Source of the DNA: Fodinibius salipaludis
GTDB lineage: Bacteria > Bacteroidota > Rhodothermia > Balneolales > Balneolaceae
Direction of reading: 5' to 3'
DNA length: 64,000 nt
Assembly (NCBI RefSeq): GCF_002287075.1
Contig: NZ_NSKE01000008.1
Coordinates: 1-64,000 of the forward strand
Shown here piece by piece: positions 23,950-30,291 of the stretch (position 1 is the first letter of the stretch; every line of letters starts with the position of its first letter). Position numbers and translations under genes: made by a program. The notes beneath the pieces were generated by a model that had not been told where the DNA came from, did not search any database, and worked only from the letters and a program-made list of their open reading frames with translations.

Positions 23950-25179
23950 TTATTCGTATAGCAGGTATTGTCTGCGCTGTTCTTTAAATTCTTGAGCTGT
24001 TTCCTCCCAGTTCTTGAGATACAGCTCCTTTTTTAGCTGCTCTTGTAGAAGTGAATTATCAATACCGCTGAGCTTAGGCATATAATCATTGAGCGAAGCT
24101 TCCGGTGTGGCATCACGTAATGTGGACAAAAGTTCGGCTCCCAGAACAACTGGATTAAATGCATCAGGGTTGGTCACTCGTATGGCAATACCATGGCATC
24201 GCTCACCCTCAAATTTGGGGTTCGAAGCTTTACCGGGAATGGCTTTTGGAGTAAAAGAGCGCCGCTCGATATTGACACCTGAAAATTGCCGACGAAGCTT
24301 TGCAATATGGGAAGTCGTCAGCTTGGTTTCCGGTGAACCAATTCGAAGAAAGGGGTCATTGGTACCACGTCCCTCAGACATTGTTGTTCCCTCAAAAAGA
24401 ACGGTTCCCAAATACACATAGGCATGATAAAAACTGGGTAGATTGGGGGATGGCGGAATCCACGTCAGGCCTGTTTCGGGCCATTTCATGGAGCGATTCC
24501 ATCCCTCCATGGGAATAACACGAACAGTGGCTTGCCCGGCATTTTCAATCCATTGTTCGCCCACCATCATTTTGGCTAATTCACCGAGCGTCATTCCATG
24601 CACCATCGGAATGGGATATTTGCCCACAAACGAGCGGTGTTTGTTCTGTATCATCCATCCCGAAATAATGTCCCCGGCGGGATTGGGACGATCTAAAATC
24701 CAGACGGGAATATCTTGGGCTGCCGCTGCTTCGATAATATTACCCAGCGTAGCATTGTAGGTATAGAATCGAGCACCCACATCCTGAATATCAAATAGCA
24801 GGATATCTACTTTTTTAAGCATTTCCGGGCTGGGAGTACGTGTTTTTCCATAGAGCGAAAAAACAGGCAGGCCAGTGGATTGATCAATGCCATCTTCGAT
24901 GGTTTCTCCAGCTCCAACATCTCCGCGAAAGCCGTGTTCGGGAGCGAAGAGTGCCGTAACGTTAATGTCACGAGCAAGGAGCGTATCAAGCATATGCGAG
25001 CCGCCTACGCGGGCCGTGGGATTCATTACCAGTCCCACGCGTTTGTCTTCGAGCTCACCAAGGTGTTTGTCGAGCAACACATGGGCCCCCACTTTTACCG
25101 CTGGCTGGGATTGGGTCAAATTGCAACCCCACAAAATTAAGCATCCACAGACAGATAATAGGATGGTAGCAGCTCGCAT
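23950..25179 (-). CDS. NamZ-type exo-beta-N-acetylmuramidase (DUF1343) lipoprotein
   Basis: A 409-residue lipoprotein (lipobox ILWGC, Cys about 19) of the DUF1343 family. A Bacillus member, NamZ, removes terminal MurNAc from peptidoglycan fragments. Conserved segments are RVGLVMNPTARV, ALFAPEHGFRG, LLFDIQDVGARFYTY, WILDRPNP and FEGTTMSEGRGT. It lies 15 nt downstream of ndk on the same strand and converges with rlmB, only 3 nt away. A role in cell-wall recycling in the periplasm is inferred from the family. Confidence 0.87.
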   Translation of the reverse strand: MRAATILLSVCGCLILWGCNLTQSQPAVKVGAHVLLDKHLGELEDKRVGLVMNPTARVGGSHMLDTLLARDINVTALFAPEHGFRGDVGAGETIEDGIDQSTGLPVFSLYGKTRTPSPEMLKKVDILLFDIQDVGARFYTYNATLGNIIEAAAAQDIPVWILDRPNPAGDIISGWMIQNKHRSFVGKYPIPMVHGMTLGELAKMMVGEQWIENAGQATVRVIPMEGWNRSMKWPETGLTWIPPSPNLPSFYHAYVYLGTVLFEGTTMSEGRGTNDPFLRIGSPETKLTTSHIAKLRRQFSGVNIERRSFTPKAIPGKASNPKFEGERCHGIAIRVTNPDAFNPVVLGAELLSTLRDATPEASLNDYMPKLSGIDNSLLQEQLKKELYLKNWEETAQEFKEQRRQYLLYE

Positions 25180-25194
25180 ATCCTCGAAATTTGG

Positions 25195-25626
25195 TTAGGC
25201 TTTATTAGCCACTACTTCGGCTTCAGAAAAGAAATAGGCGGCCTCTTTTTTGCCATTTTCAACAGAGTCAGAACCATGAATGATATTTTCGCCTACGCTG
25301 TCGGCAAAGTCGGCGCGAATGGTTCCTTCTTCAGCTTCACTGGGATCGGTAGCACCAATGAATTCCCGGAAATCTTTGATAGCATTTTCCTTTTCAAGAA
25401 TCATGGGTACGCAGGGTCCGCTGCTCATGAACTCAACAAGTTCATCGAAAAATGGACGTTCTTTGTGAACGGCATAAAATCCGCCCGCGGTATCTTTAGT
25501 AAGACGAGTCATTTTCATCGCTACAATGCGAAACCCGGCCTCTTGAATGCGGCGGGTAACTTCGCCAATTAGATTTTTTCGTACGCAATCTGGTTTTAGG
25601 ATTGTGAGAGTTCGTTCTACTGCCAT
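25195..25626 (-). CDS. ndk: Nucleoside diphosphate kinase
   Basis: Transfers gamma-phosphates from ATP to other NDPs through a phosphohistidine. The 143 residues match the standard subunit. The active His about 117 is in ENIIHGSDS; the start [12 protein letters not shown] and [15 protein letters not shown] are family hallmarks. It is divergent from the cyclase gene at 25763 and followed by the NamZ-type gene. Confidence 0.96.
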
Positions 25627-25762: not shown

Positions 25763-27607
25763 ATGGTTGATAAGACGGTACAATTATCTTGGACCAGGCA
25801 GGTTAATGCTCTACCGCAGGAGATTTGGCCATTTGTTACGGATACTAATCGTTTGTTCAAGGATTTGAAGCAACCGAGTATTCAGAAAGCCCACATAACG
25901 CAGTCGGTAGATCAGGGTTTAGTTCAGCTCTCCTATAATGGAATCAACCGTTACGAAGTTTGGGAAGAAGCACCATATGAATGGGAATATCCCTTTCGGT
26001 TTGGTGTAGTTCGGCATTACCAATCGGGGGCGTATAAGGATTTGAAAATCCAGGTTGACATAAAAGAGAATGAAAACGGAAGCCGCGTAATTGTTAAGCT
26101 TTGGGCTATTCCCCGCAATAAAATCCTTTCATTCTGGACGACCCTAAAACTTAAAATGCTGGTAAGGCGACGCTTAAAAAATGTGATTGACACATACGAT
26201 CAGTTAGCCATAAGTGATCGTCATTACTATCAGATTGCTAAGAAAAAGAGATTGGTGCGTGGTGGCAAAAAGCGGCTTAGGCAGATTAAGGAAGAGCTGT
26301 ACAATAGCCAAGTAGATGCAGCTGTGTTGGAGCGGTTAATTGAGTTTGTCCGTTATGCTGATGATTTAGAGTTGCAGCAGATTTCTCCACTCAAACTGGC
26401 CGAACAGTGGGAGGTATCCCAAGAGAAGGTTTTTAAGGTTTTTGTTTATGCTGCCAAGGCTAATCTTTTGAATTTTAACTGGGATCTGTATTGCCCTTCC
26501 TGCAGAAGTATCCAAGAATCGGTAAAAACGTTGAATCAGATTCATGAGCCGATCTATTGCGATAAGTGTGAGCAGGAATTTAAAGTCAATTTTAATAAAA
26601 CGGTTCAACTCAGCTTTATACCACATCCACTTATTCGCAAAATAAATAAGGATCAATATTGCATCCGCGGCCCCCAACAGAAGTCACACATAGTGTTACA
26701 GCAGTATTTGGAACCCGGCCAAAAACGTTATCTGATGACGGATCTGCCCTCCGGGGAATATATTTTGCAATCTACTCAGTCAAAGGGTGAGGCAATGGTC
26801 TATGTTGATGAAGATGGAGACAATACGGTTCATGTAAATATTAGTCCATCGGGTCTTTCTGGTGAAGAGGTACATATTGCAAACAGTCCCAATTTGAGTA
26901 TTGAAAATACAACTGATGAAAATCAGCTGATTACTCTCGAGCATAAGAGCTGGTCACTACATGGAGTGAGTGCTGCTCGGGCAACTTCTTCGCAGCTGTT
27001 TCGCAATCTGTTTGCGGATGAAGTATTGCGCAAGGGCGAAAAAATTTCCGTTGATAATCTGACGTTGATGTTTACTGATCTGTTTGACTCAACCGGTATG
27101 TATAACGAAGAGGGGGATGATAAGGCAGTTGGACAAGTTATTGATCACTTTGAAATCCTTCATCGGGTAGTTGCCAAAGAGCATGGTGCTATTGTTAAAA
27201 CCATTGGTGATTCGGTTATGGCAGTATTTTGTGAACCGGATCAGGCGCTGCGAGCTTATCTGAGGGCTCAACAGATAATATCGAATGATGAACGTTTCAC
27301 CGATGATTTTCAGCTCAAGGCGGGTATCCATCACGGGAGCTGTGTTGCCGTAAATCTGAATAGTCGAATCGATTATTTTGGTTCCACGGTCAATATTGCC
27401 TCCCGATTCGTGGACTACGCTTCAGAAAACGAACTTATCATTTCTCAGAAGGTGTTTGAGAATTATAGCTTACAACAAATGCTTGAGGAATCTGACAATG
27501 GAGGGAGAATAGAGGACATGAGTATTCGTCTCAAGGGATTTGAGAAGGAATCATTTTCCATTAAGCGAATTCAAATAAGTGATTCTCCCCTTCGATTGGC
27601 TATGTAA
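25763..27607 (+). CDS. Class III adenylate cyclase with START-like and zinc-ribbon domains
   Basis: A 614-residue soluble signalling protein. Residues about 1-155 resemble an SRPBCC/START-type ligand-binding fold. A linker and zinc ribbon (CPSC 244-247, CDKC 266-269) match the DUF5939 layout, then a region of about 110 residues with no clear domain. The cyclase domain (about 428-600) has both metal aspartates (MFTDLFDST about 439, IGDSVMAVF about 483), adenine-selecting Lys about 479 and Asp about 537, and the transition-state Asn/Arg in VNIASR (544-548). All catalytic residues are present, so cAMP synthesis is likely. No TM segment; the activating ligand is unknown. Confidence 0.85.
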   Translation: MVDKTVQLSWTRQVNALPQEIWPFVTDTNRLFKDLKQPSIQKAHITQSVDQGLVQLSYNGINRYEVWEEAPYEWEYPFRFGVVRHYQSGAYKDLKIQVDIKENENGSRVIVKLWAIPRNKILSFWTTLKLKMLVRRRLKNVIDTYDQLAISDRHYYQIAKKKRLVRGGKKRLRQIKEELYNSQVDAAVLERLIEFVRYADDLELQQISPLKLAEQWEVSQEKVFKVFVYAAKANLLNFNWDLYCPSCRSIQESVKTLNQIHEPIYCDKCEQEFKVNFNKTVQLSFIPHPLIRKINKDQYCIRGPQQKSHIVLQQYLEPGQKRYLMTDLPSGEYILQSTQSKGEAMVYVDEDGDNTVHVNISPSGLSGEEVHIANSPNLSIENTTDENQLITLEHKSWSLHGVSAARATSSQLFRNLFADEVLRKGEKISVDNLTLMFTDLFDSTGMYNEEGDDKAVGQVIDHFEILHRVVAKEHGAIVKTIGDSVMAVFCEPDQALRAYLRAQQIISNDERFTDDFQLKAGIHHGSCVAVNLNSRIDYFGSTVNIASRFVDYASENELIISQKVFENYSLQQMLEESDNGGRIEDMSIRLKGFEKESFSIKRIQISDSPLRLAM

Positions 27608-27702: not shown

Positions 27703-28197
27703 ATGAACGCAAAAGAAAATTCTCAGCAGCCTGTTGCTCCTGCAGCAAAAAAGATGAAAAAAAAGAAGAATATTGCTCTTGTTGCCCACGATCACAGAAA
27801 AAAAGATTTAATTGACTGGTGTGATTTTAACAAGGGATCGCTTTCAAAGCACAACTTGTTTGGGACAGGAACGACGGGCAAAATGATTGCAGACAAGGTA
27901 GGGCTGGATGTAAATCGTTTTAACAGTGGACCACTGGGGGGCGATCTGCAAATTGGAGCCGCCATTGCCGAAAATAAGATTGAGATGATGATCTTTTTCT
28001 GGGATCCGCTGCAGGCCCAGCCGCATGATGTAGACGTAAAAGCACTGCTCCGGATTGGCGTGCTTTATAACATCCCGATGGCATGTAATCGATCATCGGC
28101 CGATTTCCTGATTTCAACGGAACTTATTGATGAAGAGTATGACCGCTTTATCGTGGATTACAGCGATCGTTTTTCTAAAGATGTAGACAATAAGTAG
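27703..28197 (+). CDS. mgsA: Methylglyoxal synthase
   Basis: Converts dihydroxyacetone phosphate to methylglyoxal and phosphate, a glycolysis bypass. The 164 residues include a Lys-rich N-terminal extension of about 22 residues before IALVAHD. Family signs are FGTGTTGKMI, GPLGGDLQIG (catalytic Asp about 81), FFWDPL (Asp about 101) and QPHDVDVKAL (His about 108). Its stop directly abuts the ATG of the next gene, so the two are co-translated. Confidence 0.94.
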   Translation: MNAKENSQQPVAPAAKKMKKKKNIALVAHDHRKKDLIDWCDFNKGSLSKHNLFGTGTTGKMIADKVGLDVNRFNSGPLGGDLQIGAAIAENKIEMMIFFWDPLQAQPHDVDVKALLRIGVLYNIPMACNRSSADFLISTELIDEEYDRFIVDYSDRFSKDVDNK

Positions 28198-30291
28198 ATG
28201 ACTGATTCTTCTGATCACAATCAAAATCGTTTGGCTGATGAATCCAGCCCGTACTTATTACAGCATGCCAATAATCCGGTGAATTGGTATCCATGGGGAG
28301 AAGAAGCGTTTGAAAAGGCAAAGAAAGAAGACAAGCCGATACTGGTATCTATTGGCTATGCCACCTGTCACTGGTGTCATGTGATGGCGCATGAGTCATT
28401 TGAGGATGAGCAGGTCGCGGAGTTGATGAATCGTGCCTTTGTAAATATTAAAGTGGATCGCGAGGAACGCCCGGATATTGACAATACCTATATGCTGGTT
28501 TGCCAGATGCTTACCGGCAGTGGTGGATGGCCGCTAAACGTTTTTCTGACACCTGATAAAAAACCGTTTTATGCGGCAACGTATATACCAAAAGTCGGTC
28601 GGCAGGGTCGTCCGGGGATGCGGGAGCTGATTCCATGGATTTCAAAAATTTGGCAAAATGATCGGGAGAAAATTCTGAATTCAACTAATGAAATTGTCAC
28701 TGCTTTTCAGAAGTCGAATGTATTTACGCCGGAAGATCGCCTGGACAGTGATATTTTAGATGAGGCGTATCATCAGTACGAGCAGCAGTTTGATGAACAA
28801 CATGGGGGCTTTGGTTCATCACCAAAGTTTCCAAGTCCGCATAATTTAATGTTCTTACTGCGCTATGCCGATCGCTATAAGAATTCAAATGCCCTGGAAA
28901 TGGTGAAAAAAACGCTCACCCAGATGCGAATGGGCGGTGTTTTTGATCAGGTCGGCGGAGGGTTTCATCGCTATTCAACGGATCAGCAATGGCTGGTCCC
29001 TCACTTTGAGAAGATGCTCTACGATCAGGCGATGTTGCTAATGGCTTACACCGAGGGTTGGGAAGTTGCCGGGAACGACCTTTTCAAGCAGACGGCGGAT
29101 GAAATTTGCAGTTATTTGACGCGTAAGATGCAGGATGAGAAGGGTGGCTTTTATTCTGCCGAGGATGCCGACAGTGAAGGGGAAGAGGGGAAGTTTTATG
29201 TGTGGAGTACCGAGGAGATTCGAGAGATATTACCATTGGCGGAGGCAGAGCTTTTTATTGAAGCTTATAACCTGACTGATGATGGCAATTATCATGATGA
29301 GGCTACCGGTCGGAAAACGGGCAAGAATATTCCGCATCTTCAAAAATCGTTTAAAGAGCTTGCCCGGGAGCGGGATATGAAGCCTGAAAACCTTAAGTCT
29401 GCATTAGCATCAATTCGAGAAACATTGTTGGATAAACGCAAAAAACGGATTCATCCGCTGTTGGATGACAAAATTCTCACTGACTGGAATGGGTTAATCA
29501 TTGCCGCATTGGCCAAGGCGGGATCGGTATTTAATAATCAGAATTATGTCACAAAAGCGGAGCAGTGCTGGACATTTATTGAAGATAAGATGCTCATTGA
29601 GGATGGGAGGCTAAAACATCGATACCGCAATGGGGATGTAGCTATTGATGGCCATGCTGATGATTATGCGTTTGTAATATGGGGACTTTTAGAGCTGTAT
29701 GAAGCTACCTTTAAAACGAAATATCTGCAGCAGGCCGTTTCGTTGAATGAGCAATTTGTGGATCAGTTTTGGGATGAGGAGAAAGGCGGGTTTTACTTTA
29801 CGGATGAATCCGCTGAGGAGCTGTTAGGTCGCAAGAAAGAAATTTATGATGGGGCGATGCCTTCAGGAAATTCTGTTGCCATGATGAACCTGCTTAAATT
29901 AGGACGAATGACTGCCAATACTGAGTGGGAACAGATGGCTGATGAATCGCTAAAGCTGTTTGCCAAAAGTATTAAGAAGGCACCGACAAGTTTTGGGGCG
30001 GCCTTACAAAGTGTGGATTTTATGGAGGGGGATTCCCGGGAAGTTGTTATCGCCGGTTCTCAAGGGGATTCTGACATAGAACAATTTATTCGCTCGCTGT
30101 ACGGTCGCTTTTTGCCCAGATCGGTTTTTATTTTCCATGATCCGGAGGATAATAAGATTGGTGATTTGGTACCGTACCTTTCCGATTTTGGAATGAAAGA
30201 TGGTAAACCTACCGCCTATGTCTGTCAGAATTATGCATGTGAGCTGCCAACGAATGATCCTGATAAAATGATAGAGCTGATCGAAAAGTAG
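28198..30291 (+). CDS. YyaL/spermatogenesis-associated protein 20-like thioredoxin-domain protein
   Basis: A 697-residue protein with an N-terminal thioredoxin-like domain (DUF255, about 1-170) carrying the CHWCH motif at 57-61. A large (alpha/alpha)6 barrel like N-acylglucosamine 2-epimerases follows (about 190-600). The start [21 protein letters not shown] is nearly invariant in the family. The biochemical role is not established. It is contiguous with mgsA, with no intervening base. Confidence 0.9.

Follow-up and report, generated by a model that had tools for sequence, protein, structure and literature searches.

A predicted START-like/DUF5939 class III adenylate cyclase of Fodinibius salipaludis and a candidate cAMP receptor encoded between pilus-motor-like genes

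Class III cyclases with diverse sensor domains are well known. These enzymes use two metal-binding Asp residues, a Lys/Asp pair for the substrate, and an Asn/Arg pair for the transition state; among them, Rv1264 senses pH by means of an N-terminal domain different from the one described here. To our knowledge, SRPBCC/START-like ligand binders such as MSMEG_5634, TcmN, and PYL do not occur fused to a cyclase, and we know of no established input of START-like domains to bacterial cAMP signaling. In Pseudomonas aeruginosa, cAMP reaches type IV pili through the transcription factor Vfr, according to the accessible part of PMC11656802. Here, we present an analysis of a predicted adenylate cyclase gene of Fodinibius salipaludis, which lies in a window (the whole stretch of DNA analyzed) of 64,000 nucleotides at the start of contig NZ_NSKE01000008.1. 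The gene and its parts are as follows:

25763..27607, plus strand: START-like/DUF5939/class III adenylate cyclase gene, 614 aa (reading frame and domain matches)
25763..26227, plus strand: predicted SRPBCC (START-like, helix-grip) domain, residues 1-155 (AF2, Foldseek, VIA)
26264..26491, plus strand: winged-helix-like part of DUF5939, residues 168-243 (AF2, VIA; near-neutral charge)
26303..26647, plus strand: Pfam DUF5939 (PF19363) match, residues 181-295 (61.9 bits, cut-off 22.5)
26492..26569, plus strand: predicted zinc ribbon CxxC-x18-CxxC, C244-C269, inside the wing (Cys invariance in 50/50)
26639..26962, plus strand: beta-rich domain, residues 293-400 (AF2 strands; alignment to homologues)
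26963..27052, plus strand: residues 401-430, helical linker leading into the cyclase (AF2 helices; alignment)
27047..27604, plus strand: class III cyclase catalytic domain, ending with the protein itself (residues 429-569 match Pfam)

The reading frame is uninterrupted, and no NCBIfam model matches the 614-aa protein above its cut-off. The highest hydropathy over 19 residues is 0.76, which suggests no transmembrane segment and agrees with the original prediction of a soluble cyclase. Purifying selection acts on every domain: across all four parts of the protein, dN/dS was 0.046 to 0.065 in the comparison with L013 and 0.035 to 0.103 in that with L014, two close relatives with 84-92% identity per domain, arguing that the architecture of the gene is not a product of chance. 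For two more distant relatives (L091 and L092), dS was saturated in six of eight comparisons. A scan for promoters and terminators near the gene returned 6 and 2 sites, respectively, versus 5.2 and 1.7 in shuffled sequences.

The catalytic domain matches PF00211 at residues 429-569 with 67.8 bits (E 1.2e-18; Pfam cut-off 21.9), and its closest solved structures are class III cyclases, of which Ma1120 is the best (E 3.9e-14). The six catalytic residues, expected from the outset to be intact, are all present; we take D439 and D483 to be the metal-binding Asp residues, K479 and D537 the substrate Lys/Asp, and N544 and R548 the transition-state Asn/Arg. Our alignment contains seven short proteins and 43 that are full-length; of the latter, 42 (including that of the window) are among the 49 members from the order, and one comes from genome G244 of another Bacteroidota family. 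The six residues are retained in 42/43 full-length and 7/7 short ones. Because Lys and Asp occupy the two substrate positions, ATP, and not GTP, is the predicted substrate. Judged from these residues, the protein very likely makes cAMP.

For the N-terminal region, an AF2 model of residues 1-168, computed from an alignment of 43 rows, has a mean pLDDT of 74.4 (medium confidence) and the topology b-a-a-b-b-b-b-b-b-a. Foldseek searches of the PDB with this model returned 309 matches at E <= 0.001, the top one being 7wa9 (MSMEG_5634; E 7.2e-8), and VIA-align superimposed it on Cor a 1.0404 with a Z of 12.1 (rmsd 3.4; 144 residues aligned), followed by MSMEG_0129 (Z 12.0), a TcmN mutant (11.7), and PYL3 (11.6). 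The highest-ranking PDB entries belong to the START/Bet v 1-like type and include MSMEG_5634, TcmN, and PYL receptors. At the sequence level, the Pfam family Polyketide_cyc2 matches 15 of the 43 aligned N-terminal domains (best E 3.8e-5); a Pfam scan of the window protein's own N-terminal domain gave no match, and sequence-profile searches of the PDB with two domain alignments gave weak matches only (best E 0.25 and 0.057). Residues 1-155 are predicted to form an SRPBCC/START-like helix-grip domain, and the modeled fold, the Foldseek match, and the VIA Z score thus bear out the original assignment of this region.

We suggest that this START-like domain probably senses a hydrophobic ligand. Alternatively, it could be a protein-protein or membrane-docking module, with the cyclase being set by partners or by expression. 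The domain is among the two least conserved parts of the protein (mean identity 0.34, compared with 0.51 for linker and cyclase), and homologues in rhizobia as well as short homologues of 348-349 aa do without it, as might be expected of such a module. However, W22, W74, and P77 are invariant across the 43 START-like domains, with nine further columns nearly so, and the nearest folds include ligand binders (PYL receptors and the TcmN aromatase/cyclase). Given both sides, we regard a docking function as possible but rather improbable, and we retain ligand sensing as our working assumption.

DUF5939 (PF19363) was recognized at residues 181-295 with an E value of 7.3e-17 and 61.9 bits (cut-off 22.5), a match that spans positions 12-127 of the 281-position profile, and the family was found in 46/46 aligned proteins (E <= 0.1). 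tblastn alignments to rhizobial DUF5939 members continue past the Pfam match, to about residue 577-601. For an AF2 model of residues 164-428 (pLDDT 86.7), Foldseek gave no match at E 0.001; VIA aligned it with a Fur protein (Z 7.7; rmsd 2.6; 80 residues aligned, within model residues 2-127) and with TFE-alpha (Z 6.3), and most of its matches lie within model residues 3-130. Residues 168-243 are apparently winged-helix-like with the zinc ribbon in the wing, the scores being middling. After the ribbon, six predicted beta strands make up a beta-rich domain (residues 293-400), which is alignable in the rhizobial homologues and missing from those of 348-349 aa; the helical linker (residues 401-430) is alignable even in these minimal proteins. 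The region of about 110 residues that the original prediction had left undefined is, therefore, in part DUF5939 with the ribbon inside it and in part the beta-rich domain at 293-400.

A winged-helix-like fold with a Z of 7.7 to Fur raises the idea that the cyclase binds DNA and couples cAMP directly to transcription. However, this Z is middling, and both the winged-helix region and its presumed recognition helix carry almost no net charge (medians of +1 and +2, respectively, in 43 proteins). Based on this charge, we rejected DNA binding by the winged helix and consider a direct coupling to transcription extremely unlikely.

The four Cys residues of the ribbon (C244, C247, C266, and C269), two CxxC knuckles as anticipated for a four-Cys zinc ribbon, are invariant in 50/50 aligned proteins, among which are some that lack the START-like domain and one in which the cyclase has decayed. 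Because even decayed and minimal homologues keep all four, the zinc is more likely structural than sensing. It had also been proposed that the protein senses zinc or redox state, such that loss or uptake of the ribbon zinc would switch the cyclase. The predicted fold places the ribbon upstream of the beta-rich domain and linker, and CxxC pairs can in general be redox-active; against this, the pattern of invariance fits a structural site better. We found no support for zinc or redox sensing and regard it as very unlikely.

The architecture is widespread among relatives. In the order, 76/128 genomes have some match and 49/128 encode the full-length protein, while DUF5939 occurs in 40/394 sampled genomes of the phylum, in 49/244 genomes of the class, and in 0/14 control genomes. 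A close relative (87-88% identity) is encoded in two uncultured Aliifodinibius assemblies. Relatives beyond Bacteroidota come from plasmid records only: tblastn returned 198 such records, many of them matching the cyclase only and none covering 80% of the query, and the best matches, from Rhizobium, Sinorhizobium (pSymB), and Microvirga, extend from residues about 178-196 to 577-601 with ~27-31% identity. Four genomes of another Bacteroidota family encode the versions of 348-349 aa, which consist of just the winged-helix/ribbon part, the linker, and the cyclase. From these alignments, the START-like and beta-rich domains can be read as additions to a common core or as losses from it. By visual inspection, each of the minimal cyclases (L048, L052, L054, and L060) adjoins an undecaprenyl-diphosphatase-like gene. 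In the homologue L090 of G244 (L090:4917-6785), all six catalytic residues are changed, while the ribbon and the START-like region are kept; this protein would be a pseudo-cyclase and is perhaps a ligand-binding regulator. Across 98 genomes of G244's order, L090 is joined by a single further DUF5939 match, which is weaker.

The original prediction had regarded a soluble cyclase with sensing of a hydrophobic ligand or of redox/zinc state as unusual. This holds in part only: the architecture is common within its order, and DUF5939 is a recognized Pfam family; on the other hand, DUF5939 itself appears to be unstudied. A literature search returned no paper naming DUF5939 and no description of the START-like/DUF5939/cyclase order, and the accessible parts of PMC8316039, PMC11656802, and PMC12288463 describe neither this architecture nor a cyclic-nucleotide-binding (CNB) protein of the kind presented below. 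In the accessible parts of two papers on Sinorhizobium meliloti cyclases (PMC10127613 and PMC13001267), no named Cya protein could be matched to the DUF5939 protein. DUF5939 is, in sum, a named family in an arrangement that we did not find in the literature searched.

The cyclase gene lies in a conserved gene order, for which we compared 50 loci, including those of the seven short homologues:

25195..25626, minus strand: ndk, nucleoside diphosphate kinase, divergent, upstream (cluster in 41/50 loci)
27703..28197, plus strand: mgsA, methylglyoxal synthase, downstream (cluster in 36/50 loci)
28198..30291, plus strand: DUF255 thioredoxin-fold protein, downstream (cluster in 35/50 loci)

A gene for a NamZ exo-beta-N-acetylmuramidase (23950-25179, minus strand) belongs to the same order. 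In five of the 12 genomes of the genus (L124-L128), the cyclase is absent between ndk and mgsA and mgsA is kept; in G005, mgsA is missing between the cyclase and the DUF255 gene. The gene order looks like an inherited background in which the cyclase is dispensable. That mgsA lies downstream in 36/50 loci, and here starts 95 bases past the cyclase stop codon, could point to a control of carbon overflow in which the cyclase acts together with the neighboring methylglyoxal synthase. However, each gene has been lost singly from an otherwise intact order, and their co-occurrence within genera is weak (42 genomes with both versus 40.4 in label shuffles; p 0.08). For these reasons, we rejected the mgsA operon as a functional unit, and a joint role in carbon overflow has, in our judgment, little probability.

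The genome itself encodes five proteins with a CNB domain. In an alignment with M. tuberculosis CRP, the best-scoring CRP/FNR-like protein (L004) shows Asn in place of Glu and Tyr in place of Arg, and the CNB proteins L005-L007 have, by eye, no full phosphate-binding cassette motif, which is G-E...R-x-A. We rejected a CRP-type cAMP receptor for this genome because the Glu/Arg pair of the cassette is missing from its CRP/FNR-like proteins. The search for CRP-family receptors called for by the original prediction thus gave no receptor of the CRP type and one candidate in which the cassette is kept, so that the genome is not without a potential cAMP receptor. This candidate is a stand-alone CNB protein of 167 aa encoded outside the window (G000 contig 36, 95389-95889), distant from the cyclase gene. 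Its closest solved domains are those of cGMP-dependent protein kinases, G90, E91, R100, and A102 are invariant in 20/20 orthologues, and no DNA-binding domain was detected. With its intact cassette, the candidate is the most likely reader of the cAMP among these proteins; such a receptor would explain why cyclases are kept in a genome without a recognizable cAMP-binding CRP. Its locus is as follows:

L160:1508-5365 (G000 contig 36): CNB gene flanked by the genes of a PilB/GspE-like and a PilT-like ATPase

A CNB match occurs in 81 genomes, from which we compared 20 loci; the order PilB/GspE-like, CNB, PilT-like on one strand was present in 20/20, with small genes intervening in some. Pfam assigns both flanking ATPases to T2SSE, and both score below their NCBIfam cut-offs (PilT, 314.2 versus 319.1; PilB, 440.2 versus 675.65); therefore, a type IV pilus and a related secretion machine are both possible. 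The PilB/GspE-like ATPase (L160:3593-5365) has an MshEN domain (Pfam, 27.9 bits versus 23.1), and the NCBIfam model of the c-di-GMP motif scores below its cut-off. Domains of the MshEN type are known to bind c-di-GMP, and the pilus-type machine may, consequently, answer to two cyclic nucleotides.

The cyclase and the candidate receptor tend to occur together. Counting receptor matches at E <= 1e-50, which omits weaker matches in seven more genomes, 45 of the 92 genomes of the family have both, three have the cyclase only, seven the receptor only, and 37 neither; for the 67 genomes that are at least 90% complete, the numbers are 40, 1, 4, and 22, respectively. When labels were shuffled within genera, a mean of 39.2 genomes had both (p <= 5e-5), a comparison in which kinship inside genera is uncorrected; mgsA served as the control in the same shuffle. 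With any class III cyclase in place of this one, 44 of the 67 genomes have both, 14 the cyclase only, none the receptor only, and nine neither. Counting also the weak matches, a receptor match is present in 40/41 near-complete genomes with this cyclase, compared with 10/17 with other class III cyclases only (Fisher p 0.0004). Three of the 12 genomes of the genus, all among the five without the START-like/DUF5939 cyclase, have no PF00211 gene at all, and exactly these three have no receptor, although this may reflect a single event. In G037 (97% complete), the START-like/DUF5939 cyclase is the sole PF00211 gene and there is no receptor match; the receptor of G042, counted as present, has an in-frame stop. 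The source genome has three class III cyclase genes, and most genomes have other cyclases as well; the cAMP read by the receptor, therefore, need not come from the START-like cyclase. Based on sequence and occurrence, the arguments for and against the candidate reading the cAMP of this particular cyclase seem to us evenly balanced.

Altogether, we propose a model in which a cytosolic cyclase is gated by its START-like domain. Binding of a small hydrophobic ligand to this domain would control the C-terminal catalytic homodimer; the winged-helix/zinc-ribbon part (DUF5939), the beta-rich domain, and the short helical linker would act as a structural transducer, in which zinc has a structural role. 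The resulting cAMP would be read by the stand-alone CNB protein encoded elsewhere, between the PilB/GspE-like and PilT-like ATPase genes, and as its output a type IV pilus, or a machine related to it, would be controlled post-translationally. We give this overall explanation an equal chance of being right or wrong. The narrower version of a direct relay, from hydrophobic ligand to cyclase and, by cAMP and without transcription, to a receptor acting on the motors for pilus extension and retraction, is tentative and, in our view, doubtful. Nevertheless, the co-occurring receptor candidate offers a concrete output for the cyclase, and the data suggest, without amounting to proof, that a small molecule is linked to surface pili through cAMP.

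Compared with described systems, the protein shares its catalytic domain with the mycobacterial class III cyclases Ma1120 and Rv1264, and the matches to both are restricted to this part. With MSMEG_5634, TcmN ARO/CYC, and the PYL abscisic acid receptors, it shares the predicted helix-grip fold, at an identity of 5-18% among the matches listed. The rhizobial DUF5939 cyclases (PF19363 and PF00211) resemble it in the winged-helix/ribbon part, the beta-rich domain, and the cyclase, and L111-L113 have the same catalytic and Cys residues; however, these proteins (468-469 aa) begin at the DUF and have no START-like domain. The system of P. aeruginosa, as described in the accessible part of PMC11656802, is similar in that an adenylate cyclase, CyaB, feeds pilus function. 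There, however, cAMP acts via the transcription factor Vfr, whereas the candidate CNB protein here has no detected DNA-binding domain and is encoded between motor-like genes, which would make for a possible non-transcriptional cAMP route to pilus motors, as opposed to the transcriptional route through Vfr.
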